DNA of 56,071 nucleotides, from assembly GCA_903919615.1 (NCBI GenBank), contig CAIXIX010000070.1, positions 1 to 56,071 on the forward strand. Direction: 5' to 3'. Position 1 is the first letter of the stretch; each line of letters starts with the position of its first letter. The position numbers and the translations under genes were made by a program. The stretch is from an uncultured Chthonomonas sp. (GTDB taxonomy: Bacteria > Armatimonadota > Chthonomonadetes > Chthonomonadales > Chthonomonadaceae). The notes under the pieces are model-generated. The model was not told where the DNA came from, did not search any database, and saw nothing but the letters and a program-made list of their open reading frames with translations. This document shows, piece after piece, positions 8,794 to 30,521 of this stretch.

Positions 8794-9623
8794 CGGCCGC
8801 CGGTTTCGGACAGCAAGCGCGAACGATCTCTGTGATTACTCCCGAGAACGTCGAAGTTAACTATCAGCTCGCTGGCGTAATCACAAGATCGATGGCGCTA
8901 ATCGTCGATCTTGTGATTCAGGCTCTGCTGTTACTATGCGTTGTATGGTTTTTGAACGTAACCAGCCATATCGGGTTCGGTTTGAACCACATTCTAACCT
9001 TCATTGGTCTGATTGCCAGCTTCTGCGTACTTCTCGTCTACAACATCTTTTTTGAAATGATGTGGGGAGGCAGGACTCCGGGCAAGAGGCTGTTCAGACT
9101 GCGCGTGCTGCGCGACGGCGGGTATCCGATCAATCTCATCTCTAGCTGTATCCGGAACATACTTCGATTTATCGACCTGGGCATCCTGATCGCGCCATCT
9201 GCAAACGCAACCTGTATTTTATTCGGTACACCGGGCCTGGTGTGCGTAGTCTGCAGCCCACTTTACAAACGAATTGGAGACTACGCCGCTGGAACGATTG
9301 TGATCCATGAGCAGACGTCATTCCTCGCTCAGTCGGACGTCACGTCCGCGCAAGACGTGTCACGGGCGGGAGGCATTGGAGACATCCTGCCAAAGGTTAG
9401 CAATATCGACCGTGTGACGCCTCACGATTACCAGGTCATCAGGCGCTTTACGGCTCGCCGCGCGTCGCTTGAGCCTATCGTGCAGGCGGCAGTGGCAGAG
9501 GCGATTGCCAGGCCACTCCTTATTCGAATGGAAATTAAAGTGACGATAGGTCATCAAATTCAGTACGCTGACGTACTTGCAGCCATTGAACAGCGATATG
9601 TTGAGGAGAATGGCCTTCTTTGA
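8790..9623 (+). CDS. RDD family membrane protein
   Basis: 277 residues, beginning at a TTG that overlaps the zwf stop codon. The RDD domain covers about 15-170: ITRSMALIVDLVIQ carries the conserved Arg and Asp of the family, then two to three hydrophobic helices, and MMWGGRTPGKRLFRLRVLRDGG, the usual cytoplasmic loop. The C-terminal about 100 residues are soluble. RDD proteins are inner-membrane proteins; some are proposed Na+/H+ antiporters, most have no assigned role. In many bacteria an RDD protein neighbours SpoIIM-like membrane proteins, but here the partner is a different large membrane protein, again joined by a TTGA overlap. Confidence 0.85.
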   Translation: MTAAGFGQQARTISVITPENVEVNYQLAGVITRSMALIVDLVIQALLLLCVVWFLNVTSHIGFGLNHILTFIGLIASFCVLLVYNIFFEMMWGGRTPGKRLFRLRVLRDGGYPINLISSCIRNILRFIDLGILIAPSANATCILFGTPGLVCVVCSPLYKRIGDYAAGTIVIHEQTSFLAQSDVTSAQDVSRAGGIGDILPKVSNIDRVTPHDYQVIRRFTARRASLEPIVQAAVAEAIARPLLIRMEIKVTIGHQIQYADVLAAIEQRYVEENGLL

Positions 9624-11884
9624 ATCAAGACACTAAATCCGCAAGCGGCCCCGATAACGCAAGACTTGCTCAACTGATCAATGGAGTCCTTACAGGAATC
9701 ACCTTCTGGATCGTAGGGCTCATTGTAAATATGAGGAGTTTCGCCGAAGCGATCTTTCCGCACATATCTACCAGCAGCACCAGTGTTGAACTGAAATACC
9801 TTTCTCAGTCCCGGCCCATTCCCCACTTACTGGACTGGAGTTACGGCACGCTTGAACGGCTACTGGATCTAAAAGAGATGAGCGCACCGCTGCTTCTGTT
9901 TGGGACGCTGGTACTCGCCTTCATTCTGCTTATTACAGCGATCACGGTGATTAACCCGACGTTTCATCCGTTCTCGCGCCGACACGATTCGTCACCGATC
10001 GAGGAAACTGCGCCAGCCGATAGTGAGACGACGTTAGATCCGCCGAACGATGAGGCTGCTGTACTTGATGATGCAGCATCTGAGGAGACCGTTCCCGAAG
10101 TTGATGTGCCCGATCACGAAGTACCTGTGGAGGCGACACCCGATAAGGCCACTGCCCAACAGGCAAAGCTATCGCAGGCGCTGGCTGGCAGCCTTCACCT
10201 AGATGGCGTCCATGTAGAGCAGGCCATTCGTATTTTTGCCATCGTTGGAATTCCTTTTCTTGTAGTCTGGTATATAACCGGTGGATCTGGCTCAATGCCG
10301 GGTGGACTCGCTTCGCACGTTACTTCCAATAACAGCATTCTCTGGAAACTGGATCTCATCCGCTGTGTGGCCGCAGGAATTGCCCTTTTTGCCGGCTTCA
10401 GCCTGAATGGCATAGCCGGCATGTTTGGCATACTTCATCAAGCTTATCAAACCGACCATGCCATTACGCCTGGCAGGCCCGCCTTGATTAACCAGAGATT
10501 TCTCTTAACACTTATTCAGGGAGCGGTTTTTGGCGCAGCGCTTTGGGAGCTGCAACGGTTCGCGCCCCATAGCCCCGACGATGCAATTTTGGCGAAGCTT
10601 CACGCCCTCGGCACCTTTACGACGACTAACTACGATCTGTTGCTGCGCCCATACGTTTATGGCGCATCCCTAACCTGGCTTGGCTGCGGAATCCTTTTGT
10701 ATGGCCTTGGGAAACCCGGTTTGAACACCATACTCCGGCTGGTTCTGGTGGCTCCAGTATTGGCATGTGGGTGGTCGGCTCATCGCGATGCCGCAGAAAT
10801 CACAGATTCTGCCCTTGCCAGGCGTTACGACTTGACGCCAGCCATACTCGCAACGGCGCCTGCCTTCGATATTCGCCGCCCGGATGTCTCCGTACCGCAG
10901 GGAGAGGAAGCGGGGATTCTGTTTGGAAAGTCTCTTGGCATAAAATCGGCCGCTTCTACAGCGGTGCATGGCAAAGATTTTATTGTATTTCACCCTCAGC
11001 GCACCTTTGTCGTTGAGGCACAGTGCGTAACGGATGATGGCTTAATTGCTGAGCGCTCACAGATAGACGTGGTCAAGCAGTTCCTTCAAACAAAGAAATA
11101 CCGAACGGCGCTGTCGTGGGTGGGCATCAAGTACCTGTTCAATCAGGCAAATCTAGATCTCGATTCTACCGCGGCGATCCGGACAGGCCTCGATGATTTG
11201 GAGTTCTGCCCGCACGTTATCAATACATCCGAAACTACCAGAGACATGCTCTATCTCTGCTCAGCATCGCCCGCGAATATCAAGTTGATGGACGAATACG
11301 CGGATTCGCGGCACTTTACGAACGATACACGTGGCGCCATGCGGATGATTGGCTCGATGTATCGCAGATTTGGGGAACCGGAAAAGGCCCTGACCTGGTT
11401 CAAGAAGGCGGACATGCCGAGCAGTTTTCTGGAACGCGTTCGAAACGAGCCTCCGATTTTTCACAATGGGAAGGTTACTGGAAAGCTCATCTGGAACGGA
11501 AAACCACTTTCCGGAGTTCGCGTTGGAGTAGTGCCACAAAGGCTAAACGGACTTACGAAGGAGCTGGAGTTCTTTGCGCTGAGATACAGCAGAGAGCTCT
11601 TTTCAGAGGCGCCAGATCCGAGCCCCTATTTTGGGGTCTATCATCCCAGGCCATTTCATCTGCGATGGATTACGGGCGGAGTAACGACGGGCGCTGACGG
11701 CAGTTTTGCGGTGGAGCACCTCACCGAAGGTGAGTACTTTCTCGTATGCTCGCTGCCAGATGGAACGCACCTCACCGTGCCTATCGATTCGCACCTGGCA
11801 GTCCATAACAGTCCACCCGCATTTACGCTTAATTACAAAGCGCCTGCTATCAATCTAGGTGAAATCGGATTCTCGCGGCAGTAA
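9620..11884 (+). CDS. Large membrane protein with carboxypeptidase-like regulatory domain
   Basis: 754 residues from a TTG overlapping the stop of the RDD gene. Layout: two membrane segments (about 22-37 and 89-111), an acidic Glu/Asp/Pro-rich linker (about 125-178), then five more hydrophobic stretches between about 203 and 395, and a soluble C-terminal half. That half includes one TPR-like helix pair (MYRRFGEPEKALTWFKKA) and, near 610-720, a beta-sandwich resembling the carboxypeptidase regulatory-like fold (GKVTGKLIWNGKPLSGVRVGVV ... GADGSFAVEHLTEGEYFLVC). Such domains are usually extracytoplasmic. The overall family is not recognised. Translational coupling to zwf and the RDD gene suggests a joint role at the membrane; nothing links it directly to sugar metabolism. 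Confidence 0.7.
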   Translation: MNQDTKSASGPDNARLAQLINGVLTGITFWIVGLIVNMRSFAEAIFPHISTSSTSVELKYLSQSRPIPHLLDWSYGTLERLLDLKEMSAPLLLFGTLVLAFILLITAITVINPTFHPFSRRHDSSPIEETAPADSETTLDPPNDEAAVLDDAASEETVPEVDVPDHEVPVEATPDKATAQQAKLSQALAGSLHLDGVHVEQAIRIFAIVGIPFLVVWYITGGSGSMPGGLASHVTSNNSILWKLDLIRCVAAGIALFAGFSLNGIAGMFGILHQAYQTDHAITPGRPALINQRFLLTLIQGAVFGAALWELQRFAPHSPDDAILAKLHALGTFTTTNYDLLLRPYVYGASLTWLGCGILLYGLGKPGLNTILRLVLVAPVLACGWSAHRDAAEITDSALARRYDLTPAILATAPAFDIRRPDVSVPQGEEAGILFGKSLGIKSAASTAVHGKDFIVFHPQRTFVVEAQCVTDDGLIAERSQIDVVKQFLQTKKYRTALSWVGIKYLFNQANLDLDSTAAIRTGLDDLEFCPHVINTSETTRDMLYLCSASPANIKLMDEYADSRHFTNDTRGAMRMIGSMYRRFGEPEKALTWFKKADMPSSFLERVRNEPPIFHNGKVTGKLIWNGKPLSGVRVGVVPQRLNGLTKELEFFALRYSRELFSEAPDPSPYFGVYHPRPFHLRWITGGVTTGADGSFAVEHLTEGEYFLVCSLPDGTHLTVPIDSHLAVHNSPPAFTLNYKAPAINLGEIGFSRQ

Positions 11885-11896
11885 CTCTGGTAAGGG

Positions 11897-12691
11897 CTAA
11901 CCCAGATTCCACGTTTCGCAACCGCGAAAGGGCATATGGACTCCTTCGAGGTAGCGAGGTCTTGGGTTGTAACTATTCACTCCAGGAGTCTCAACACCAC
12001 GAAGCATAAATGCGCTCGGCCAGGGGCCATCGTTGCGCACAAGTATCTTTGTTGTTGCCGGAATGTATCGGATCGTGAGGCCGCAGCGTCGCCTGGCCGA
12101 GTGGTTTGCTTCGGAGCCATGAATTACATTTGGATGGTGAACTGAGACTCCACCACGCTCCAATACACAGTCAATCGCGCGCGACTCATCCACAAATGCA
12201 GAATCCATGCTGGAGCTTAGAACGTTCGGTTTGCTCTTATCCGGTTTCATCTCCTGGAGAGCCATGTTCTGGGTGCCGGGTATCAGGCGCATACATCCGT
12301 TTTCAGGCAATGAGTCGTCGACTGCCAGCCACAGCGTGATCACTTCCATCGGCTGCAGGGGCCAGTAGCTTCCATCCTGGTGCCAGAGCACTGGCTGCCC
12401 ATCATGCGGTGGTTTGCAGATATAGTGAGACGCAAACAGTGCGATGTCTGGTCCAATAAACTGCTGGGCGATATCTAGCAGCCTATTATCGCTCACGAGC
12501 CGAACCCAGAATGGATCCTCAGTCATGAGCGTATGACCCAGGTGCTCTGGTCGCAGACCGGGGTTTCGCGCAAGGAGCCATGCAACGTGGCTGCTAGCCT
12601 CATCCATGAGCTCCACATCCAATGCATTGGGAAACAGAACATAACCGTCCCGGTTATACTGCTCCACCGCGCCTGTTTTGATGTCTGCCAT
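11897..12691 (-). CDS. Phytanoyl-CoA dioxygenase (PhyH) family oxygenase
   Basis: 264 residues from the ATG at 12691. That start has AGGAGT seven bases upstream, whereas an ATG six codons earlier lacks one. It is an Fe(II)/2-oxoglutarate-dependent oxygenase: the metal triad is H104-x-D106 in LWHQDGSYW and H191 in NVIHGSEANHS, followed by RRRCGLTIRYIP for 2-oxoglutarate. Conserved WLAVDDSLPENGCM sits between. Bacterial PhyH proteins hydroxylate diverse small molecules or amino acids, so the substrate is open. It is the last gene of a seven-gene minus-strand run, 48 bases after the FemAB-like gene. A second PhyH gene lies at 29661-30521; the two share the HQD-SYW and WLAVDD blocks and are paralogues. 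Confidence 0.9.
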   Translation of the reverse strand: MADIKTGAVEQYNRDGYVLFPNALDVELMDEASSHVAWLLARNPGLRPEHLGHTLMTEDPFWVRLVSDNRLLDIAQQFIGPDIALFASHYICKPPHDGQPVLWHQDGSYWPLQPMEVITLWLAVDDSLPENGCMRLIPGTQNMALQEMKPDKSKPNVLSSSMDSAFVDESRAIDCVLERGGVSVHHPNVIHGSEANHSARRRCGLTIRYIPATTKILVRNDGPWPSAFMLRGVETPGVNSYNPRPRYLEGVHMPFRGCETWNLG

Positions 12692-12739
12692 TATTTCGAC
12701 TCCTGCCATTGAGCCTGGTACCGCGATTGACTCACTGGG

Positions 12740-13816
12740 CTATCCGGATATTTCTGCGCTGCCAAGTTTCTCAACAATCCGATCGGCCAGCCTGTCGTAG
12801 AAGATGAGGTCGTAAGCGCCGAGCGAATCGAAACGCGCTCCTCCCAGTTGCTTTTTGAACCGGCTAAAACCTGCATAGGGATGATCTGATGTTCCAAATG
12901 GATCGAAGCCGTACAGATCGTACTCGGTATAGCCATCGGCTTGCATCTCTTGAATGATCCTCCAATGCAGGAGGTAGACAGGCATAACGCGGCGATGCTC
13001 GACGGAAGAGCCGCCATAAAGGAATGTGGCGCGCTTCCCAAATCGGATTACGAGGGCTGAAGCAAGCGTCTCACCCTGAAACTCGGAGAAGAAAATCTGA
13101 GCCCCGCCGGATGGGAAATGAGCGGCGCAAAGATTAAGGAAGAAGCTGTAGGGTTCGGCGAAGAAGCCGTTTCGGCCCGCAGTATCCGTAAATAATTGGT
13201 GAAACAGCTTGACGTCCTGCATCGCAGTCGATCGCCGCACCTGCACTCCATGGCGTATCGCCACACCGATATTGTATCGGCCCTTCGGATGCATCTGTCG
13301 CTTCAACTCGTCTTCATTTTGATTGATGTCAATAACAAGCGAATGCGCCGGGTTTAGATCCACCGGCGCACGGCTCCAGTTACGCATCACGGAAGGTCGA
13401 GGCGGCGATATTCTAGGCTCGATACGCAGTCCAAGCCCACCCTGGCGGTCGGCAAGCGCCGTCGCTTCACCAATGATCATTTTGAGCGCCTTACGGGAGT
13501 GCTCCGTACTTTCCCATGGCACAATCGGCCCATCGGCGCAGATAAGCATGCCTTCGGAAACCGACGACGGATAAGAGAGCAGCGCGGCGCCGCCACCAAG
13601 CTTGCCCATGTTGAACAGCCCGAATTGATTAACCTCGTAGCCTTCAGAGCGCTTAAAGCGAAGCCATGCGGTGCTCTGCATGAATCCGGAATAGGGGCTT
13701 GCTGAGACCATATGATCCCATTCAAGATCGAGTTCCGAACCCACGGTTGAGATCGTCGGATCAAACCGCTCTTCTGACAGCCCCGACGGTTCAACCAGCT
13801 CCGCTCTTTTTTTCAT
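12740..13816 (-). CDS. FemAB-like (peptidoglycan bridge / lipid II aminoacyltransferase) family protein
   Basis: 358 residues with the double-GNAT FemAB layout. Features seen are SGFMQSTAWLRFKRSEGY near the N-terminus, a GPIVPW strand, the linker-like MHPKGRYNIGVAIRHGVQVRRS, and a C-terminal GNAT half ending YDLYGFDPFGTSDHPYAGFSRFKKQLGG, the family's hallmark. Fem proteins transfer amino acids from aminoacyl-tRNA to the peptidoglycan stem peptide. Relatives attach amino acids to other surface peptides or small molecules. Its ATG overlaps the stop of the SpeE-fusion gene by one base (TGATG), so the two are tightly coupled. Whether tRNA is the donor cannot be told here. Confidence 0.8.
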   Translation of the reverse strand: MKKRAELVEPSGLSEERFDPTISTVGSELDLEWDHMVSASPYSGFMQSTAWLRFKRSEGYEVNQFGLFNMGKLGGGAALLSYPSSVSEGMLICADGPIVPWESTEHSRKALKMIIGEATALADRQGGLGLRIEPRISPPRPSVMRNWSRAPVDLNPAHSLVIDINQNEDELKRQMHPKGRYNIGVAIRHGVQVRRSTAMQDVKLFHQLFTDTAGRNGFFAEPYSFFLNLCAAHFPSGGAQIFFSEFQGETLASALVIRFGKRATFLYGGSSVEHRRVMPVYLLHWRIIQEMQADGYTEYDLYGFDPFGTSDHPYAGFSRFKKQLGGARFDSLGAYDLIFYDRLADRIVEKLGSAEISG

Positions 13817-16302
13817 CAGCCCGCTATTCGGGATAGCGCGGCATCGATCCGGTTAAGATGGAGGTTCAGCCGATCGATGTCCTTCATCGTCGCATTCGTA
13901 TCCGCTTCGTTCTGCCTGATGTCTCGATTAGTTCTGCGAAGCGCTTCGATCACCGAGATCTCTTCTGTGCCGTAATCGACCTGATAGTAGGGATCGCCAT
14001 AGTTCATGGACTGAAGGTTGCTGTAGTCGTTAAGATCGCGATAAAGGGATCTTGAATCATTGGCGAGCAACTGCAGATCGTTTTGATCGGAAGCGATTCC
14101 GCCTGAGGTGTCTTTCCGCATCTGAAGCAGTGCGGATCGAACCACCTTCTGAAGCTGCGGCGGAGCCTGGCGCACTCCGTTTATTGAGCCACCGCTTATC
14201 TGTCCAGCATCAAACGTCATCCATGCTCCAGACGCATCGCGCATCTGTATCGCGCCCGACGCCGTTAGTCTTGCATCGATGAAAAGCTCGAGGTCATCGG
14301 GATGCAGATCGGTTGGGATCACTCCGGCCGGCGGATTGCCGAGCCTCTGCATCGCGACATCCAATTTCGATGAGAGATCCTGAAGATTTCGCAACTCCTG
14401 CATGTCTCCGGCGACAGCGGGCATAAACCAGGATGTCCATCCCACCCACGACAACCACTCTCTGCGCGCAACGATCGCATTTTGAACACTGTCCTGCTGG
14501 CGCGCAATCTGATCTCTCACATTCGCGAACAGTGAGGGATCCGGATAGAGCGAAATGACCGGATTGGGCGAATCCTGGCTCATTAGAGCCACAGTTCCAT
14601 TCGTAAGCAACAAGAAGGCGTTATCCGAAACATTAATGACTACATCGCCATTATCAAGAACGGACATGTCTTCGCTAGCCAGAAACAGAGCTTCATGCTT
14701 CTCTGGCGGAGCCATGTTTGGATTTCCGCCACCGACGGATGTATAGGGATGAACGTGACCGTAACCGCTCCCACAGTAGGAGTAGACCCGCGCTGGTTCG
14801 TACGTGCCGTAAATATCTACGGCATGGCCTCTGCCGTATGCCGTTCGGAATCCCGAGCTTGTAAAGGTGGGCGACGAAGGACCTGAAAGTACGCTATGAC
14901 TTGCGGAAAAGCCGCCATTGGCGCGTCCTGTTGCCGTTCCGCGAGCACCTCCAAAGCTGCTGGAACTCTGTCTTCCACCAGCGGAAAAGCCGCGAGCCCC
15001 GCTAAAACTGCCCGATTCTGGCGCTCCGAATCCGGCGCGGGCGCCGAAACTGCTATGGCTTACCGATACGCCTCCGTGCGATCCACCGCCAAAGGATCCC
15101 TTAGCAAACGCATTGTCTGGTGCAATCGCATTTGCGAGGGTCATCATAATGACCAGAGTCGCAAACAGTTTATAGCTCCATGCGCTAAAGAGCTCGAAAC
15201 GAAATGCGTGGTCTCTCAAAAAACTGCGCAGCCGGTTGAGCTCTGTAATGACTGATTCGGGCAGCTCTTTTGCCCGCTTCAAAACAGCGTCAAGCAGCCT
15301 TCGAATGTCAAGCTCACGTACGGTGCCAACAATCTGATCAGCCAGAGTCTCGATCATCACACGCGTATGGTATGGATGCGAGATCGGTATGGAGTTCAAC
15401 AACGGATTGAGATCGTACGGCGATGCTTCCTGCGGCTCATCCGATGTTTGTGTGGCAAGTGTTGGGTTTAGCAGCAGCGGCAGCAGAGCAGCATTCCCGC
15501 AGTTATTGATCGGCACATGTCGCATCAACCCTCGCTCTGAAGCAGAGAATCTGGCAGCGCGAGCTAATGATTTAAGATCGACCAGGCAAGATTCAATGGG
15601 AATGCTAAGCGCCTTTAGGTCTGATGCGCGAAAGTTTTCCTGACTGCAAAGCATGAACGCCCAGACACCATAGCCATGATCCCGAAAACTTGGGATGCAG
15701 ACGCGATATGGCATCGGATTGAAACCCGCTGATTTTACCGTTTTGGCAAGGCACCAAAAGGCCAGCGGCGTCGTTTGAGGTGATACGCCATTAATCGCGA
15801 GGACAGCGCGCGCCCCCAGGCTGAGCTTCAGCAAGCCGTACCACTCCGCGCTGAATACTCGGGTATCTTCTGGGCGGCGTGGAACGGTGAAATCACAAAT
15901 CACTACGTCGTAACCATGGGCGGCCTGCAAGAAATCCCAGGCGTCCTCAATAAAAACGCGCACGCGCGCATCCGAAAAGGCTCCACAGTTAACTTGATCA
16001 AAGAGAGTTCGGCCCAGCTCAACAACGTCTTCACTGTAGTCGACAAGATCTACAGAACTAACGCCTGGGAAGCGAAGGCATTCACGCAGCGCCAGGCCGT
16101 CTCCTCCACCACAAATCAGTACTTTCAGGTCATTGGCTGTTCTGGATCGAGCAAGTGCAAGCGCAGGCAACGCCAGGTATTGATGATAGATAGCCTCATC
16201 GGCAGTGTCAAATTGAAAATCGCCATCAATGTAAAGGGCGAAACCCGGTTCTGTTGCACCGTCCAGGCGCTCGCGCTGGTCGACGAAAATGTTAGGATTC
16301 AT
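13816..16302 (-). CDS. Spermidine-synthase-like enzyme fused to a transmembrane Gly/Ser-rich surface region
   Basis: 828 residues in one open frame. Residues 20-220 are a spermidine synthase (SpeE)-type methyltransferase fold: LYIDGDFQF (23-31), DEAIYHQYL, the nucleotide motif GGGDG (65-69), LVDYSEDVV, and VVICDFTVPRR with D137 in the place of the catalytic aspartate. The second aspartate of the usual D-x-x-D/DLPDP motif is replaced by V140. Residues 376-396 form one hydrophobic segment ending NAFAKG, which reads like a signal peptide with an AFA-K cleavage site. Residues 401-490 are Gly/Ser-rich low complexity, and about 580-828 are helical with a coiled-coil-like end. SpeE moves an aminopropyl group from decarboxylated S-adenosylmethionine. 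Here the enzyme would face the cytoplasm and the tail the outside. It overlaps the next gene upstream by ATGA. Confidence 0.8.
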   Translation of the reverse strand: MNPNIFVDQRERLDGATEPGFALYIDGDFQFDTADEAIYHQYLALPALALARSRTANDLKVLICGGGDGLALRECLRFPGVSSVDLVDYSEDVVELGRTLFDQVNCGAFSDARVRVFIEDAWDFLQAAHGYDVVICDFTVPRRPEDTRVFSAEWYGLLKLSLGARAVLAINGVSPQTTPLAFWCLAKTVKSAGFNPMPYRVCIPSFRDHGYGVWAFMLCSQENFRASDLKALSIPIESCLVDLKSLARAARFSASERGLMRHVPINNCGNAALLPLLLNPTLATQTSDEPQEASPYDLNPLLNSIPISHPYHTRVMIETLADQIVGTVRELDIRRLLDAVLKRAKELPESVITELNRLRSFLRDHAFRFELFSAWSYKLFATLVIMMTLANAIAPDNAFAKGSFGGGSHGGVSVSHSSFGARAGFGAPESGSFSGARGFSAGGRQSSSSFGGARGTATGRANGGFSASHSVLSGPSSPTFTSSGFRTAYGRGHAVDIYGTYEPARVYSYCGSGYGHVHPYTSVGGGNPNMAPPEKHEALFLASEDMSVLDNGDVVINVSDNAFLLLTNGTVALMSQDSPNPVISLYPDPSLFANVRDQIARQQDSVQNAIVARREWLSWVGWTSWFMPAVAGDMQELRNLQDLSSKLDVAMQRLGNPPAGVIPTDLHPDDLELFIDARLTASGAIQMRDASGAWMTFDAGQISGGSINGVRQAPPQLQKVVRSALLQMRKDTSGGIASDQNDLQLLANDSRSLYRDLNDYSNLQSMNYGDPYYQVDYGTEEISVIEALRRTNRDIRQNEADTNATMKDIDRLNLHLNRIDAALSRIAG

Positions 16303-16880
16303 CGTGCGGCACCTCGAGGCAGAAGGTGGGAGGCAACAACACTGATGCCGCCGGATATAACCCCAGCGCCAATCGAAAACAGCACGATCGTGGTTGCGGC
16401 GGCAAAGAATTCGTCGCCAACCTGCGTGTAATCCTTATGAAGGTGGTCGAAAAGCACGATCAGGTTCGCCGCTGAATATAACATCATGGCAAAGACAGAT
16501 GCCCTGAAGCCATCAACAAAAGCAAACTTGACAGATCGTTCGCCTGCATGTCGCCAACCAACGAATATCCCGGCGACAGCCGGCACCACACCAAGAATCA
16601 GCATTAGCCAGATCCCTGGCTTCCATCCCTCAGGCTGGCGTGTAGAAACGATCAAGTAGCCGATCAGCGCGATGACAAATCCGATTCGTACACTAACCGC
16701 CACGGTACCTTCACGGGCCAGTCGTGCAAAGCGAAGTTGCCGGCCGAGATCGGATATCCGCATCGGGTCGCCGCCATCGTGCGCCGCTCGGTTTAGCGCT
16801 TCGTCGGCTTCATCGAACCGTCCTTTTTTTATTGCATCAACGGCTGCTTGAAGGTCTTTTTGTGCTGCTGATCCATCCAT
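16299..16880 (-). CDS. Membrane protein of unknown family
   Basis: 193 residues. A short helical, TPR-like N-terminus (AVDAIKKGRFDEADEALNRAA) precedes about five hydrophobic segments: VRIGFVIALIGYLIV, IWLMLILGVVPAVAGIFVGW, a polar loop with GERSVKFAFVDGFRAS, FAMMLYSAANLIVLF and TIVLFSIGAGVISGGISVVAS. The ATG at 16880 follows AGGAG at a rather long 12 bases, and the 3' end overlaps the SpeE-fusion gene by ATGA. DUF350 membrane proteins occur beside SpeE-like/DUF2617 genes in other bacteria. This one has no clear DUF350 signature, so I leave the family open. Confidence 0.65.
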   Translation of the reverse strand: MDGSAAQKDLQAAVDAIKKGRFDEADEALNRAAHDGGDPMRISDLGRQLRFARLAREGTVAVSVRIGFVIALIGYLIVSTRQPEGWKPGIWLMLILGVVPAVAGIFVGWRHAGERSVKFAFVDGFRASVFAMMLYSAANLIVLFDHLHKDYTQVGDEFFAAATTIVLFSIGAGVISGGISVVASHLLPRGAAR

Positions 16881-16915: not shown

Positions 16916-17452
16916 CTACGAGATAGCAATGATTCTGGTTCTGCTTCGCACCCAAACATTTTCGCCGGGGTACGTATGTTGTGTTTCGAGGGTTGCCCCG
17001 CCATCGAATGCGCTCCACCTCATTCGCGTCCAGGCTGGAGAATCGCTGTCCCCGTCCGGATAAGCCTGTTCGATGGTGCCATCTGGTTTGCCCCAGTTTG
17101 CGAAGGTGCTAAGATCGCTTAGCGGCAGTATATCTATGCGAGCATGAATTCGAATCCCATCGGCATCGAGGTCAAGTATGTAACCACTTATTGAGGCAGA
17201 TTCTGCCACTAGCTCGGTGGACAGGCGATCGCTTCCACAGCTCAGCACTTCAGTAATCGCGCCTGTGGCGCTGCGCACACACATTGCGTGGCTAGCGCCT
17301 AGCGCGTAGAAAGTGATGGTTAGTTCTGGCCCGATATACGTCTCTTTACTGAGAATTCGTAAAGACTCCACCGGCGCCTCACCCTTGTAAACTCTATAGA
17401 CCAGTTCTCTCGACGAATACGGTAACTTTGGCTCCAACCGGTAGTTCTCCAT
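16916..17452 (-). CDS. DUF2617-like protein
   Basis: 178 residues. The LGASHAM core (51-57) and the C-terminal block W-x-x-FDGG...HTYPGE-x-x-VRSRTR (about 145-172) match the pattern I know for DUF2617: a central G-x-SH, then an FPGD-like turn and a final W-x-x-HxYP-x-T-G-x-x-V-x-TRT. Here the turn reads YPDGDSDSPA. DUF2617 genes are known neighbours of spermidine-synthase-like genes, which fits this location three genes upstream of the SpeE fusion. No biochemical role is established for the family. The ATG follows the HEAT-repeat gene's stop directly (TGAATG), so the genes are translationally coupled. Confidence 0.6.
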   Translation of the reverse strand: MENYRLEPKLPYSSRELVYRVYKGEAPVESLRILSKETYIGPELTITFYALGASHAMCVRSATGAITEVLSCGSDRLSTELVAESASISGYILDLDADGIRIHARIDILPLSDLSTFANWGKPDGTIEQAYPDGDSDSPAWTRMRWSAFDGGATLETQHTYPGENVWVRSRTRIIAIS

Positions 17453-20687: not shown

Positions 20688-21830
20688 TCACCTATCCTGC
20701 TGATAAAAATAGAGATGCCCCTCCGTGTCCTTGTTTTCCGATGTTAGAACGAGGATACCGACTTTGCCATCATTTTTCGGTTCACCTATTCGCACATCGA
20801 GGAGGTGGCCAGGCAGAGAATCACTCCGCCAATCCTCTTCGAAATCATCCATTGTTAGCTGCCAGAATGACTTGCCTCTGCTGGCAAATTTCGGAACATA
20901 AACCACAAGCCTGTCACCGGTTGAAGCAGCTGGGTTCTGATCTGTAGGCGCTGCGCTTCCGCGGGCCACGCCGATCATCCACTTGTACTTACCGTCCCAA
21001 ATCGATTGTACATACCTTATGCCTGGCGCAAGGGTCATTTTTTCAGCGCCAGGAAATATCTGAAGCCCAGCACCGTGCCGCGCATATCCACCTCCTGTGG
21101 TCGGCGCGCCTTCGGCGCTCGGCTGTGCCCGGTTTAAGCCAATCTCGTAAGATGTTGCAGAGTCACCGGTACCGCATATTACGCGATCGTCGAGTTCTTG
21201 CTCCCCAAGTACGAGACCCATACGCGGATCTAAGGGCGTTGGGTAGAGCTTTGCAAGGGCTCCCTTTTGCCACACGTAGACGCCGTCGGTTGATACGACT
21301 TGAATTGGCGGGAGCGTCTGTCCGTTAAATACGTTCGGGGTAACAGGTCGCGGGGCAGCAGTTCCATTTACTGGCGGGCGGCCAACTGTCGACGGTCTAT
21401 CAAAGGGAGAGTGATCCTGCGGCGATACATGCGACGAACGAAATTTGCCTGCCATCAAGAAATCGATCGACTGGCCTCGGACATCAAGTCGCCCGTCCGA
21501 AGAAAACCTGAGGCCATCCCAATGCAATACGAGCAGAGCACGGCCTCCTTCGTTCGCATTATCCGATGGCTGAAGAACGATAAGGTTATTGCGCTTCGTA
21601 TCCGTAACCGGACCGACGTCGATTAATCGAGCCGGCCGTTCAAGTTGATAATCCCAGATTTTGCTAAAGCTGATGGTAATGAGATTGCGGCCGGCTGTGG
21701 ATGTCTGTTGCCTGGCTCTCACCTGACTCAAGGCATCTATCCGCGGAACGAACACGCAACTAAATATAGCAATGACCACGAAGGCCTTAGTGGGCCCTCT
21801 ACTCGTCCGCTTTGTGAAAGACATTTGCAA
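20688..21830 (-). CDS. Secreted or anchored protein of unknown function
   Basis: About 380 residues with a basic N-terminus and a hydrophobic segment AFVVIAIFSCVFV (about 16-28), consistent with a signal peptide or anchor. The body is beta-rich with a Pro/Gly linker near 150-185 and repeated motifs of the type ALLVLHWDGLRF, DGVYVWQKGALAKLYP, GKVGILVLTSENK. These suggest a beta-propeller or FG-GAP-like fold, but no family is recognised. Start at the TTG (21830) or ATG (21824) with AGGGTGG upstream. It overlaps the zinc-ribbon gene by 26-32 bases and the kinase gene lies at its 3' end, so the three are translated together. Confidence 0.6.
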   Translation of the reverse strand: MQMSFTKRTSRGPTKAFVVIAIFSCVFVPRIDALSQVRARQQTSTAGRNLITISFSKIWDYQLERPARLIDVGPVTDTKRNNLIVLQPSDNANEGGRALLVLHWDGLRFSSDGRLDVRGQSIDFLMAGKFRSSHVSPQDHSPFDRPSTVGRPPVNGTAAPRPVTPNVFNGQTLPPIQVVSTDGVYVWQKGALAKLYPTPLDPRMGLVLGEQELDDRVICGTGDSATSYEIGLNRAQPSAEGAPTTGGGYARHGAGLQIFPGAEKMTLAPGIRYVQSIWDGKYKWMIGVARGSAAPTDQNPAASTGDRLVVYVPKFASRGKSFWQLTMDDFEEDWRSDSLPGHLLDVRIGEPKNDGKVGILVLTSENKDTEGHLYFYQQDR

Positions 21831-23742
21831 TATACCACCCTGCCATCGCCAGAAGTGAAGTCCAGCTTGTGAAAATGTTCGCGGGAAGAGAGATAGAATC
21901 TTCCGGGTTGGTCGCTGGGGGGGGCGTTATCCAGGGTGGATTCAGAATCATCATCGAGAATCCATGTCCGGCGCTCAGCTCCATTACGCCTCGAGAGAAA
22001 AGAGCCACTCCGAGAAGAGCCAGAACTGAGACATTAGCTTCCTGTCGCAATAGACAGATTACGGTATAGATTACCAGACCAACGGCTGGGCCAAACACGA
22101 GTGAAAGGATCAGCAGCCAAACGGCATCATCTGCGTCCTCATCCTGCCACGGGATAAGGTGGAAAACCGGCAAAAACATTCCGCCAAAGAAGGTTGCGAA
22201 GCACAACGGCGCCACGTACGCGGTTGGGAAGAAGCCCGCTGTGAGACCGCAGACGAGAAGTACTCCGGCATACGAAAGCAGATACTTAAGCAGCAGAGGC
22301 CCAAGATCCTCTGTTGGCTCATCCCAGTGGAAGATAATTGGCGGAGCAGTAGAACCCGGAATCGGGGGCGCAGAGGTTACTTCTCCGGCAGGATTATAGT
22401 GAAAACCTGAGATCGAGTCAACCATCGTATCCGAATAGTACTTTGAATGCACCAATCCAAGGCTGGCAGTCATCGCAGCCTGAGCATGCATCTGCTGAAT
22501 ACTTGGGATCGAAGGCTTGTTTGATGCCGCTACGCCGCTCGCTAGTCCGCCTACCTCTTCGACCTCCGCTTCGGCGTGCGGCTGATCCGCTTGCTGATAC
22601 GGCTGTGTGGGAGCGGCCAAAGGCTGTTGTGTAGGCGCAGAGCGTCGACCGCCCACCCCTCTCGACATCTGTTGCGTGGGCTGAATCGGCGCAGGCGGCG
22701 TCGGGTGTTCGTGCTGTTCCTGCGGCGCATTACGGCTGGCAGCTTGTTGCCGTGCAGAGACCGCCGGCGGCGCAGCGGCAGGCGGGGGCGGAGCCTGAGC
22801 TCTCTGTTGGGCACCAGGCAGTGGCTGCTGCCTCGAGTTCGGAGGCGACTGCTGCGGATATGCAGGCTGAACTGGCGGCGGAGGCGCCGGGCGCGAATCC
22901 AAAGGTGCGGAACGCTGTGGAATTGGCTGTCCCAGTGGCGATCGCGGCGCGGGGCCTCGCGGCGCGGGAGGCGCGGGAACGCGCGCTCCAGGCTCCATGG
23001 TCGGCTGGTGCGCAAGCGGCGGCAAATCTGAGTCAACTTCACCAAGAGGCTGCGGGGCCGTGCGTGGAACCGGCGCTGCAGGGCCTGGCGCATGCCTTAC
23101 GATTGGAGCAGGCGGCGTCTTTGCAACGGGCGGCGTTGGAGTTACAGGCTGGGCAGGTTGGTGCGCATCTACCGGCGCCTGCTGCTGTGCAGGTGATGAA
23201 ATTGGGGCCGGCCCACGTCGAATTACCGGCGGGGGCGAAGCCGCAGGAGGTGGCGCAGATGGCGCTGCCGTCTGGGAACCCGGAGGCGGCTGAACAGGAG
23301 CAGTTCTGTAAGTAGGCGGCGGCGGGGGCGCGGCAGCACGAGGTCCAGACGCAGGAGGAGGCGTCGGCTGCGCTGAAGGCGGCACGGGCCGACCTCGAAC
23401 ACCGATGATTGGCCGCGCTACTCCAGGTGCAGAAGCTGCTGGCGGAATAGAGTTTGGCGGCTCCGGAGCCACGCGCACAGGAGCGGGTGTCGGATCGGGT
23501 GGCGCCGTCTGCCAGGGAGCCGCAATCTCAGGCTCGTCCTCTTCAGGTTCTGGCCCCGTGAGCGGAACATGCGGCGCCGACCTGACGATAGGGCGTGGCG
23601 CCGCACCCCTGTTCGACGGCGGTGGCGGTGGAGCAGTCGTGGACCGGGTTCCAGCTTCGCCCGTTGCGGCAGTGAGAGGATGGCGACACCAACTGCACAC
23701 GTTGGGTGTCGTGCTCTCCATGCCACAATGCTTACAAAACAT
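21799..23742 (-). CDS. Zinc-ribbon, proline-rich membrane protein
   Basis: 647 residues from the ATG at 23742, which has GGAGGAT seven bases upstream; the frame is open further upstream but lacks such a site. A CxxC...CxxC zinc ribbon (CKHCGM ... CSWCRH) occupies residues about 3-20. Residues about 30-390 are low-complexity Pro/Ala/Gln/Arg, probably disordered. The C-terminal about 170 residues hold four to five hydrophobic segments (YLLSYAGVLLVCGLTAGFF, ATFFGGMFLPVFHLI, WLLILSLVFGPAVGLVIYTVI, VLALLGVALF, and a final one). Zinc-ribbon plus proline-rich plus membrane architecture is common among uncharacterised proteins of Planctomycetota and Armatimonadota. Function is unknown. It has a consensus promoter and a roughly 150-base leader. 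Confidence 0.7.
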   Translation of the reverse strand: MFCKHCGMESTTPNVCSWCRHPLTAATGEAGTRSTTAPPPPPSNRGAAPRPIVRSAPHVPLTGPEPEEDEPEIAAPWQTAPPDPTPAPVRVAPEPPNSIPPAASAPGVARPIIGVRGRPVPPSAQPTPPPASGPRAAAPPPPPTYRTAPVQPPPGSQTAAPSAPPPAASPPPVIRRGPAPISSPAQQQAPVDAHQPAQPVTPTPPVAKTPPAPIVRHAPGPAAPVPRTAPQPLGEVDSDLPPLAHQPTMEPGARVPAPPAPRGPAPRSPLGQPIPQRSAPLDSRPAPPPPVQPAYPQQSPPNSRQQPLPGAQQRAQAPPPPAAAPPAVSARQQAASRNAPQEQHEHPTPPAPIQPTQQMSRGVGGRRSAPTQQPLAAPTQPYQQADQPHAEAEVEEVGGLASGVAASNKPSIPSIQQMHAQAAMTASLGLVHSKYYSDTMVDSISGFHYNPAGEVTSAPPIPGSTAPPIIFHWDEPTEDLGPLLLKYLLSYAGVLLVCGLTAGFFPTAYVAPLCFATFFGGMFLPVFHLIPWQDEDADDAVWLLILSLVFGPAVGLVIYTVICLLRQEANVSVLALLGVALFSRGVMELSAGHGFSMMILNPPWITPPPATNPEDSISLPANIFTSWTSLLAMAGWYIANVFHKADE

Positions 23743-24257
23743 CGGAACGATCCTCCGTCCTGTTGCGACCGCGGCCTCTCCAGACAAGAGAGAAATGATT
23801 GCATTGGTTGTTCCCACACTCAAGGGAACGTCCGGAACAGACCGCAAAATTGGAAGGGCGCAGTTCGGCTATCGAACAGGACATAGTACTCAGAACCCTA
23901 TTATAAGATGATGTGAAACGGTTGTCAACGCACACGCGGGACTGTATCGGTCAAAACCTGCCGACAGCCGCATGGGAATTGCGAAAAAATGCCAGATGGC
24001 CGTAACGGCATCCAATATAGCTACTAGAATACCGTATCTCGTCCGATTTCCACAGCACGTGCTCATCAGTGACACTTCTCTGCTATCTGGACGCCTCACA
24101 ATGCCTTTTCGGTTCCATATGGCACTGTCTTATCGGCACCGACCTTATACGATCACAACGCGGCAGGCGCTGCACACGGCGCCATTGCGGAACGAAACAT
24201 GAAGAAGGGCCGTTTAATAATATTCCAGCTTGACTATGCCTGTGCCATAATCGCAGC
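23743..24257. other. Divergent intergenic region with a structured leader
   Basis: About 515 bases with no credible gene. The left part is the leader of the zinc-ribbon gene and carries two short perfect stems: GTTCCC/GGGAAC (23810-23829) and GTTCG/CGAAC (23863-23877). The sigma-70 promoter sits at 23900-23928. The remaining roughly 330 bases ahead of the AddB-like gene show no clear promoter or hairpin. Confidence 0.55.
23900..23928 (-). promoter_or_regulatory. Consensus sigma-70 promoter of the zinc-ribbon operon
   Basis: On the minus strand TTGACA (23923-23928) and TATAAT (23900-23905) are separated by exactly 17 bases, a perfect match to the bacterial consensus. Transcription would begin near 23893, giving a leader of about 150 bases before the ATG at 23742. 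The promoter probably drives all three genes down to 20086. Confidence 0.75.
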
Positions 24258-27369: not shown

Positions 27370-29436
27370 TCACTTGCTTGTTGCCTGCGAAAGCACGTCG
27401 GCGACCATTTGCAATAGCTGGCGCGAAGAAAACGGTTTTTGCAGAAATGCAGCCGCAGTGGCTGCCGGAACTCGCGGGGTGTATCCGGTCTCTGTATACC
27501 CAGAGGCAAGCATGAGTCGAATTGCAGGATACTGTTCGCTTACTCGATCGAGCAGTTCTCTGCCTCCCATCAATGGCATCACCGCATCAGAGATTAGCAG
27601 ATCGATCGTCGCGCCGTGTTCGGCGAGCACGTCAAGCGCGTTCAGACCGTTTTCTGCTTCCAGTACGGTATAGCCGCCTCGGCGCAATGCTTTAACGGTA
27701 AGCTCACGGATTAAGGGTTCATCCTCCACCACCAGCACCGTTTCGCGATTTGAAGTTCGACTCATCTCATCCTGGGCCTGGTCGCCCTTATGAAGGGATT
27801 TTATCGCGGGCAGATAGACTTCAAAGCAGGATCCATGGTCTGGGATCGAGCTTGGAACAATTGTACCGCCGGCCTGCCGGACGATACTGAAGCAGGTTGT
27901 AAGGCCAAGACCAGTTCCATTTCTATCCGACTTGGTCGTAAAGAACGGGTCGAAAGCCTTCTCTAACACCTCTGGCATCATTCCAGTACCTGTGTCTTCC
28001 ACGCGAATGCAGACATACTCACCGGGAACTAATTCCAGGCTAGCATTTCCATTCAGAACAGGATTGGTTGTGTTATAGGCTTTGATAACCAGTTTGCCAC
28101 CATTCGGCATAGCATCGCGAGAGTTAATCGCGAGATTCATGATCACCTGTTCTAACTGTGTGGGATCGATGCGGATATCGCTAACATCGGAATCCATCAG
28201 CAGCACAAACTCGATCTCAGCGCCTAGCAGCGGCCGCAGCATCCGTGTGGATTTTAACAAAAGGTCGGATGGCGAGATAGCAGTCGGCTGGTCGACATGT
28301 CGGCGAGCGAATGTCAGCAGTTGCCGCGTCAGATTTGCAGCGCGATTTGCTGCATCGTTGATGTAGCGCACGCTGTCCATGAGTTCGTTCTTGGGTTCGA
28401 TACCCTCCTGGAGAAGCTCTGCATGGCCAAGAATCACGGTGAGCAGGTTGTTGTAGTCGTGAGCCAGCCCCCCCGCGATCTTGCCGAGCACTTCCATCTT
28501 TTGCGAGTGCAAGAACTGCGCCTCAATCCGCTTGCGATCTGTTACATCCAGCACCAGGGACAGAACAGCGTATGCTGCCCCGGTATCATCCGTGAGCGCA
28601 GAGTTATACCATTCACAATGAACGGGCACACCTGTGCGAGTAAAGCCCTTGAGTGAAAGATCTCTACCGCCGCCCACGCCCACGCCCGTTAGCAGGCCAT
28701 TTAAGGATGCAGATAATGACGCGCGATCCTCCTCGCGATCGAGTTGCCACGTATCAAATGAGGTGTTAAGCATCTCCTCTGAAGTGAAGCCAAATATCTT
28801 CTGTGCGCCCGAAGACCAGTACCGGATTCGCATAGCCGAGTCCCACTCGATAACAGCCATTGGCGTATTTTCGATGTAGGATGTAAGCTTGCGATGCGAT
28901 TTGCGCAGCGCCTGTTCGACCTGTTCACGGTCCTTTTTCTCAGTTACGTCTGCAACGATGCCAACAACTCGCACGGGTTCATTCGAAGAATCACGAATTA
29001 TCCGGCCCTTAATGTGCAGCCATCGGATTCTACCGCTCCTGCAAACAATTCTTACATCAATATCTGGATCGTTGATGCCGGCCTTTGCACTTTGGACCAT
29101 CGCGATAAACGCAGCGCGGTCATCTGTGTGGATGCGGGGTGCGAGCTGACTCGCTGAGCCATTGAATTCGCCGGGATCGAGGTCTAAGAGGGTTTCCGTT
29201 ACATCTGTTCGCGACACGGCAAGCGAGGGCAATTCAAACTGCCACACGCCAATTTCACCGGCGCGGAGCGCTGCGTTAAGTCGCTGCTCAGCATCGAGCA
29301 TCGATTCCAGGGTACCGGACGGAACGGTTACCAGCCTTGACTCGTTAAGCTGCCTCAGTATCTGGGAACCGGTCTCATCGAACGTATCCATCAGTCCTAC
29401 CACAGTCTTTCCCACCTTGAAGCCAATACTGGGCAT
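27370..29436 (-). CDS. Hybrid sensor histidine kinase with PAS domains and a C-terminal receiver
   Basis: 688 residues from the start at 29436 (an ATG 45 bases later is possible). No membrane segment is seen, so it is probably cytoplasmic. Two PAS/PAC domains (about 50-170 and 175-305) end in VADVTEKK and VLDVTDRK. The dimerisation/phosphoacceptor helix has H326 in GGLAHDYNN. The ATPase follows with N434 in the N-box, DTGTGM and GTGLGL. The receiver begins at about 565, with the acceptor aspartate D617 in ISDAVMP and K-PF near the end. It senses an unknown signal through PAS and probably passes phosphate to its own receiver or to an unlinked response regulator, as none is adjacent. Confidence 0.92.
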   Translation of the reverse strand: MPSIGFKVGKTVVGLMDTFDETGSQILRQLNESRLVTVPSGTLESMLDAEQRLNAALRAGEIGVWQFELPSLAVSRTDVTETLLDLDPGEFNGSASQLAPRIHTDDRAAFIAMVQSAKAGINDPDIDVRIVCRSGRIRWLHIKGRIIRDSSNEPVRVVGIVADVTEKKDREQVEQALRKSHRKLTSYIENTPMAVIEWDSAMRIRYWSSGAQKIFGFTSEEMLNTSFDTWQLDREEDRASLSASLNGLLTGVGVGGGRDLSLKGFTRTGVPVHCEWYNSALTDDTGAAYAVLSLVLDVTDRKRIEAQFLHSQKMEVLGKIAGGLAHDYNNLLTVILGHAELLQEGIEPKNELMDSVRYINDAANRAANLTRQLLTFARRHVDQPTAISPSDLLLKSTRMLRPLLGAEIEFVLLMDSDVSDIRIDPTQLEQVIMNLAINSRDAMPNGGKLVIKAYNTTNPVLNGNASLELVPGEYVCIRVEDTGTGMMPEVLEKAFDPFFTTKSDRNGTGLGLTTCFSIVRQAGGTIVPSSIPDHGSCFEVYLPAIKSLHKGDQAQDEMSRTSNRETVLVVEDEPLIRELTVKALRRGGYTVLEAENGLNALDVLAEHGATIDLLISDAVMPLMGGRELLDRVSEQYPAIRLMLASGYTETGYTPRVPAATAAAFLQKPFSSRQLLQMVADVLSQATSK

Positions 29437-29660
29437 TGACGGTCAGGCTGCACGCATCTGCTCAGCGTGACCCTTACACCTGGTGCTGTCTAGGTTCTCT
29501 ATTTTACTCCAAATATTTGCATCTTAAATCATCTTATTTTCATAAACTTCATGATCGCCGACGAGGTCGGAGGATTCAATCACTTGTCCGTCGAACGGCG
29601 AGGCGTTACCGGTACTGTCTCGTGATTCCAAATCGGATATTTCCCAGGAGCGATTCGAAG

Positions 29661-30521
29661 ATGAACCTTGCGCAGCGTGTATTTGACGATTCGCAGACGT
29701 GGGCGGGATTGGACCGCGACCTTAGCTTTGTCCCTACCGCCAATGCATTGCCCAAGAGGCTCACAGCGGCTCAAATTGAGCAGTATAACTCCAGGGGCTA
29801 TATCAAAAACCTTCCCGTGTTTGATTATGCGCAGGTTCTTGAGCACCGATCGTACTTTGACAGGCTCCTGACACGTCAGATGGCGGATGGCGGAGATGCG
29901 AATTCGCTGCGGAGAATGCAGCGATTCAGCCAGCCGATTTGGGATATTATCGTCAATCCGATTATTCTAGATTACGTAGAAGATCTGCTGGGACCAAACA
30001 TCGTGGCGTGGGGACAGCAGTACTTCGTGAAGCTTCCTGGCGATGGCAAAGTCGTGTCATGGCACCAAGATGCCTCGTACTGGCCCTTCACGCCGGCTAG
30101 AACGGTGACATTGTGGCTTGCGGTAGATGATGCCGATCTTGAGAATGGCTGCATGCAGGTGATTCCGGCCACACACACGTTAGGGCACTTGGACTTTGAT
30201 ATGGCGGGGCGAGAAGAAAACTCGGTGTTGCCTCAGAAGATCCACGGGATCGAGAGATTCGGCGATCCTGTGCCGATAGACCTTAACGCAGGAGAGATAT
30301 CACTTCACGCGGACATGCTGATCCATGGTTCGGCTCAGAATAGTTCGCCGCGGAGAAGGGCGGGTCTGACGGTAAGATACGCTTCAACGGAAGTGAGATC
30401 GCTGGACCCCAACTGGAACCAGAACAGTATTGTGTGCCGAGGAACCGACCTGGATGACCATTGGGCCAATGTGCCGCGCCCTGAGGTCGACTATCTCGAC
30501 CTTCTCGACTCGCAGAATTGA
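29661..30521 (+). CDS. Phytanoyl-CoA dioxygenase (PhyH) family oxygenase
   Basis: 286 residues from the ATG at 29661, preceded by AGGAG; the frame is open further upstream but that part is unlike the family. The iron ligands are H135-x-D137 in WHQDASYW and H222 in LIHGSAQNSS, with RRRAGLTVRY after it for 2-oxoglutarate. WLAVDDADLENGCMQVIPATH is the usual central block. It is clearly a paralogue of the PhyH at 11897-12691. The next gene, 33 bases on, is a DUF2961/GH172 protein and then an MFS transporter, which suggests a small catabolic unit for a hydroxylated or glycosylated compound. Substrate unknown. Confidence 0.9.
   Translation: MNLAQRVFDDSQTWAGLDRDLSFVPTANALPKRLTAAQIEQYNSRGYIKNLPVFDYAQVLEHRSYFDRLLTRQMADGGDANSLRRMQRFSQPIWDIIVNPIILDYVEDLLGPNIVAWGQQYFVKLPGDGKVVSWHQDASYWPFTPARTVTLWLAVDDADLENGCMQVIPATHTLGHLDFDMAGREENSVLPQKIHGIERFGDPVPIDLNAGEISLHADMLIHGSAQNSSPRRRAGLTVRYASTEVRSLDPNWNQNSIVCRGTDLDDHWANVPRPEVDYLDLLDSQN

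Follow-up and report, generated by a model that had tools for sequence, protein, structure and literature searches.

A spermidine synthase-like domain joined to a predicted exported orphan domain in the Armatimonadota

Membrane-embedded homologs of spermidine synthase (7TM-SpeE) are encoded in PSP/polyamine operons together with DUF350, DUF4178, a small secreted protein and either SpeD or DUF2617/DUF4247, and operons with membrane-type SpeE have been linked to envelope stress (PMC11237479). In halophiles, 7TM SpeE proteins occur without an AdoMet decarboxylase, their putrescine residues are not conserved and their function has been called unknown, and SpeE homologs that lack this decarboxylase have been raised as an open puzzle (PMC5178350). 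In SpeE itself, the Asp of the GGGDG motif holds the aminopropyl group; of the two Asp residues in the D-x-x-D motif, the first deprotonates the amine and the second anchors the far end of the diamine (PMC10146546).

The locus described here lies in the window, by which we mean the whole stretch of 56,071 nucleotides that was analysed. It ties a SpeE homolog from a genome without SpeD to the membrane, with the diamine anchor gone, and it adds a predicted exported orphan domain that is covalently attached to the putatively cytoplasmic enzyme, an arrangement that we did not find described in the literature searched. The features are as follows, in the direction of reading of the genes, with the basis of each assignment in brackets.

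16916..17452, minus strand: DUF2617 protein, a conserved partner (profile match, gene order)
16299..16880, minus strand: membrane protein of 193 aa with a TPR-like N-terminus and about four transmembrane segments by eye; conserved upstream partner, with a 4-base overlap with the start of the fusion gene (frame, gene order)
13816..16302, minus strand: fusion gene, 828 aa, consisting of a SpeE-like domain, linker, transmembrane helix, Gly/Ser region and putatively exported orphan domain (frame, PF01564 match, homolog alignment)
15613..16251, minus strand: SpeE-like (PF01564) catalytic domain, residues 18-230, with a shortened N-terminal beta part and no TPYQ strand (Pfam/NCBIfam, PDB sequence match, alignment, Foldseek)
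16096..16110, minus strand: GGGDG motif, residues 65-69, the Asp of which holds the aminopropyl group in SpeE (alignment; role from PMC10146546)
15880..15894, minus strand: D-F-T-V-P, residues 137-141, with the catalytic base kept and Val140 in place of the diamine-anchoring Asp (PDB sequence match, alignment, PMC10146546)
15193..15612, minus strand: helical linker, residues 231-370, partly of low confidence (alignment, AlphaFold model)
15124..15186, minus strand: predicted transmembrane helix, residues 373-393, preceded by Arg/Lys (N-in, C-out) (hydropathy, model)
15097..15111, minus strand: signal-peptidase-like A-F-A / K-G site, residues 398-402, with F, K and G invariant (alignment)
14833..15102, minus strand: Gly/Ser-rich linker, residues 401-490, variable in length among homologs (composition, alignment)
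13819..14670, minus strand: orphan C-terminal domain, residues 545-828, with beta hairpins, long helical hairpins and a YxVDYGT motif at 773-779 (alignment, profile searches, model)
12740..13816, minus strand: FemAB/GNAT-type transferase, with a 1-base overlap with the stop of the fusion gene (profile match, gene order)
11897..12709, minus strand: phytanoyl-CoA-dioxygenase-like protein, which several genomes of the same family have close to the cluster and whose assignment to it is uncertain (profile match, gene order)

The single frame of 828 residues noted in the first-pass annotation is real, but it belongs to the minus strand, where it runs without interruption from a start at 16302 to a stop at 13816; the plus-strand reading of 13816-16302 is riddled with stops. 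The fusion is present in ten Armatimonadota genomes from four families, namely the window genome (G000) and nine others, being full length in G001, G007, G010, G015, G030, G044, G113 and G114 and a contig-end fragment in G013. The eight full-length homologs align end to end with the window protein at 40-54% identity, and nine fused copies made up the aligned set used for the residue comparison and the SpeE-domain tree. The fusion is thus genuine and conserved. A sequencing or assembly error that fused two genes, or the loss of a stop in one strain, would account for the two unlike halves, and such an error had been named in the first-pass annotation as grounds for refutation; a stop-free joined frame in ten genomes of four families refutes this reading and leaves it practically no probability. 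It had also been suggested that two ancestral adjacent genes were joined. This descent is unsupported, as the C-terminal half was looked for in 291 genomes and occurred unfused in none of them, with the sole exception of a short and weak match in G239 (40 residues, E = 9e-4).

The N-terminal part carries the proposed SpeE-like catalytic domain. The PF01564 match has an E-value of 1.8e-27 and a score of 96.5 bits, above the curated cut-off of 22.9, and spermidine synthase models match residues 18-274; a weak match to Methyltransf_25 was also obtained in the Pfam search. The fold was confirmed in the structural model, which matched 1inl in Foldseek (E = 1.3e-14) and had pLDDT values of 80-97 over most of the domain. 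The best NCBIfam match was to the polyamine aminopropyltransferase model PRK03612 (E = 3.7e-59), with a score of 200 bits that falls below the curated cut-off of 472; this model (PRK03612 / NF002956) covers the membrane-embedded type of SpeE. The 7TM N-terminus is absent from the fusion protein, in which about 20 residues precede the SpeE domain. In the SpeE-domain tree, the nine fused copies formed one clade (100/100), which joined with the 7TM SpeE proteins of the same phylum (100/98), apart from soluble SpeE. The fused clade therefore belongs to the membrane-embedded SpeE lineage rather than to soluble SpeE. Its stem branch is long, with 1.63 changes per site, given which the chemistry of the enzyme may have been changed or lost.

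The fused copies keep Y39, the GGGDG Asp, D88, D120 and D137, and of these the GGGDG Asp and D137 are invariant in 9/9 copies. As previously noted, the partner of D137 in the D-x-x-D motif is V140, at a position where the solved SpeE sequences have Asp. This second Asp is lost in all nine aligned members, seven of which have Val and two Phe, which supports the suggestion of an altered acceptor site. Furthermore, Asn171 is invariant in the fused copies, at a position held by Gln in the 7TM copies and in most soluble ones, and the N-terminal TPYQ strand is absent from the alignment of fused copies. Since the GGGDG Asp and D137 are kept and the second Asp is gone, the donor side and the catalytic base look intact and the diamine anchor missing, and a putrescine-like acceptor appears unlikely because the residue for the diamine end is lost in all nine members.

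The transmembrane or export segment proposed to end at NAFA-KG was recovered as a hydrophobic stretch at residues 373-402, and after the helix, 9/9 fused copies have P-D-x-(A/V)-F-(A/G)-K-G, a sequence compatible with a signal-peptidase site. The prediction of export is based on hydropathy and this motif; at the hydropathy cut-off used (1.5), the helix of the window copy falls below the threshold and those of its relatives pass. The helix has basic residues in front of it, from which the SpeE domain is predicted to be cytoplasmic and the remainder of the protein outside, where signal peptidase may release the exported domain. The low complexity that follows is likewise as first noted, with Gly and Ser making up 50% of residues 401-490 compared to 17% of the whole protein.

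The C-terminus, which had been described as helical, is modelled in residues 545-828 with long helical hairpins as expected, and with short strands as well. The AlphaFold alignment contained 15 sequences, only two of which covered the C-terminal half, and while confidence was high for most of the SpeE domain, the block means for residues 545-828 were mostly 58-92 pLDDT. Folding of the C-terminal half as a single sequence was poor (pLDDT 43), and a Foldseek search of the PDB with this poorer model gave no match below E = 0.02. The search for domains in this half against Pfam and against PDB sequences gave no convincing relative. We also considered whether an internal start might let the exported half be made separately, with a signal peptide of its own; the only candidates inside the helix were two TTG and two ATG codons, and inspection by eye showed no clear ribosome site.

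The order DUF2617, 193-aa membrane protein, fusion and FemAB is found in G000, G001, G010, G015 and G030, so that DUF2617 lies two genes upstream of the fusion in the window and in most fused genomes, and FemAB is directly downstream of the fusion wherever the contig extends far enough. G013 has the first three of these genes before the contig ends, G113 and G114 have the membrane protein, fusion and FemAB genes without DUF2617, and in G007 the DUF2617 and membrane protein genes sit on a separate contig from the fusion. In G044, the order is SpeD, membrane protein, fusion and FemAB, with SpeD in the position of DUF2617. The SpeD of G044 (L036:7893-8276) has T-S-H at the self-processing site (LLATSHLSLHTWPE), and since most other SpeD proteins examined have E-S-H, its processing may differ. 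At 7TM-SpeE loci in this phylum, both DUF4178 and DUF350 are present; no DUF4178 was found in the ten fused genomes, and no DUF350 was linked to the fusion in any of them, with unlinked DUF350 in two.

The 7TM-SpeE loci also carry an apparently undescribed membrane protein of 61-92 aa, with a Gly-rich tail that ends in GGG(P/G)GFGK, near the DUF4178 and DUF350 genes (L037:4423-4608, L038:8183-8368, L040:4644-4829, L041:4675-4878 and L042:5059-5337). Homology between this protein and the exported part of the fusion is unsupported (hhalign probability 3.7). Two DUF2617 genes were seen unlinked to SpeE, one in G007 that adjoins the gene for the 193-aa membrane protein (L061:5291-6413) and one in G011 that adjoins a PhyH gene (L062:6510-7133). 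Elsewhere in the window, a second and different phytanoyl-CoA-dioxygenase-like gene is located at 29436-30521. The protein encoded at 21799-23847 belongs to no clear family; its start is zinc-ribbon-like, its C-terminus is of membrane type, and it contains about 400 residues of low complexity rich in Pro. At 9620-11884, a 754-aa membrane protein with no convincing Pfam match is encoded next to an RDD protein, and these two are both kept in G001.

The fusion is the only PF01564 protein in the window genome, in which profile searches identified neither SpeD nor the PF17810 arginine decarboxylase. Across the phylum, SpeD was identified in 125/291 genomes and DUF2617 in 9/291, with no overlap; several of the genomes surveyed are fragmentary. 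Membrane-type SpeE is present in 9/9 DUF2617 genomes. Among the 23 genomes with membrane-type SpeE, 11 have SpeD, nine have DUF2617, none has both and three have neither, the last being 63-87% complete. The exclusivity is significant by Fisher's test (p = 3e-4) when kinship is left uncorrected, and with seven of the nine DUF2617 genomes belonging to one family it reflects few independent events (families f1, f3 and f4). This either-or pattern makes the question of the donor testable. The control genomes of Corynebacterium glutamicum and Haloferax volcanii likewise gave PF01564 and DUF2617 matches and no SpeD match. No DUF2617 was found on plasmids, and phage records gave matches to ordinary SpeE only.

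DUF2617 thus looks like a stand-in for the missing SpeD. Ser-His and HxYPxE are invariant in DUF2617, as are Ser-His and HTxPE in SpeD, but the comparison of profiles gave no significant relation between the two (hhalign probability of 13.6 over 11 columns at HTYP), and the idea of a replacement therefore rests on distribution and operon position. A search with DUF2617 against the PDB gave no match. As a tentative conjecture, DUF2617 might be an unrecognized substitute for AdoMet decarboxylase, or some other enzyme that forms the donor, and would then feed membrane-type SpeE enzymes that modify a membrane or envelope molecule rather than make free polyamines. If true, this would explain why Corynebacterium, Haloferax and other such bacteria and archaea have SpeE but no SpeD.

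Several functions can be imagined for the fusion protein. The SpeE domain could be weak or dead as an enzyme and serve to sense an AdoMet derivative or a polyamine in the cytoplasm, signaling through the membrane to the exported domain, a scheme that suits the kept donor pocket and altered acceptor site, the long stem branch and the single helix that links two folded domains. Yet the invariance of D137 and the GGGDG Asp in 9/9 copies argues for retained chemistry and the AxA-KG site suggests that the halves separate, and we consider a sensor unlikely. Somewhat less likely still is that AdoMet itself is the donor, as in a methyl or aminocarboxypropyl transferase built on the SpeE scaffold. The absence of SpeD from seven of the ten fused genomes and the Methyltransf_25 match would agree with such a transferase, as would the halophile SpeE homologs that likewise lack SpeD and the putrescine residues (PMC5178350), but the invariant GGGDG Asp is the residue that holds an aminopropyl group, and SpeD shares an operon with the fusion in G044 and, in most of the 7TM-SpeE genomes that have it, lies close to SpeE.

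The least probable of these functions is that of an ordinary spermidine synthase with an incidental tail, converting putrescine and dcAdoMet to spermidine. Such an enzyme would be expected to give the strong PF01564 match, to keep GGGDG, D137 and Y39 and to have SpeD as a neighbor, as in G044. However, none of the nine copies has the diamine-anchoring Asp, Asn171 invariably stands where Gln is usual, and the beta part at the N-terminus is cut short; furthermore, the window genome lacks both SpeD and the arginine decarboxylase, and the protein groups with membrane SpeE and not with soluble SpeE.

We infer as the most likely function of the fusion protein the transfer of an aminopropyl group to an envelope component, with DUF2617 taking the place of SpeD. 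The fuller proposal of an aminopropyltransferase-like enzyme that belongs to the membrane-embedded SpeE lineage and is tethered to the membrane, with an exported domain, an acceptor in the envelope and a donor role for DUF2617, is one that we hold at about even probability. In this proposal, the catalytic domain would reside in the cytoplasm, and the single transmembrane helix would place the Gly/Ser linker and the separately folded domain beyond the membrane, the latter perhaps to be freed by signal peptidase. The aminopropyl group, or a related group derived from AdoMet, would be transferred to an envelope component and not to putrescine, because the enzyme retains its donor pocket and base but has lost the diamine anchor. 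It would work together with the small membrane protein and the FemAB-like transferase encoded in the same operon, and where SpeD is lacking, DUF2617 would form or handle the donor. The absence from the window genome of SpeD, and so of a proven supply of decarboxylated AdoMet, speaks against the proposal, as does the long stem branch.

The closest described relatives are the 7TM spermidine synthase homologs (PRK03612 / NF002956), with which the fusion shares its SpeE lineage, its best NCBIfam match and an envelope-linked style of operon. Unlike these, it has no 7TM N-terminus and instead a single predicted transmembrane helix and exported domain after the enzyme, it has lost the diamine-anchoring Asp and it scores under the cut-off of the model. 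The PSP/polyamine operons (PMC11237479) resemble the locus in having DUF2617 as a partner, a membrane-type SpeE and an extracytoplasmic Gly-rich component. They differ in that the fused genomes have no DUF4178 or linked DUF350 but FemAB and the 193-aa membrane protein instead, and in that the presumed extracytoplasmic part is covalently fused. HVO_0255 and HVO_B0357 of Haloferax volcanii (PMC5178350) are similar in being membrane-type SpeE proteins with unconserved putrescine-binding residues, in a genome that has DUF2617 and no SpeD, but they are of the 7TM type and no fusion to an exported domain has been reported for them. With soluble SpeE (1inl, 2o06), the fusion has the catalytic fold, the donor pocket and the catalytic base in common, whereas the acceptor site, the shortened N-terminal domain, the membrane anchor and the exported half set it apart. 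The fusion represents a genuine and conserved new form within the membrane-type SpeE group, one that probably acts on an acceptor other than a diamine.
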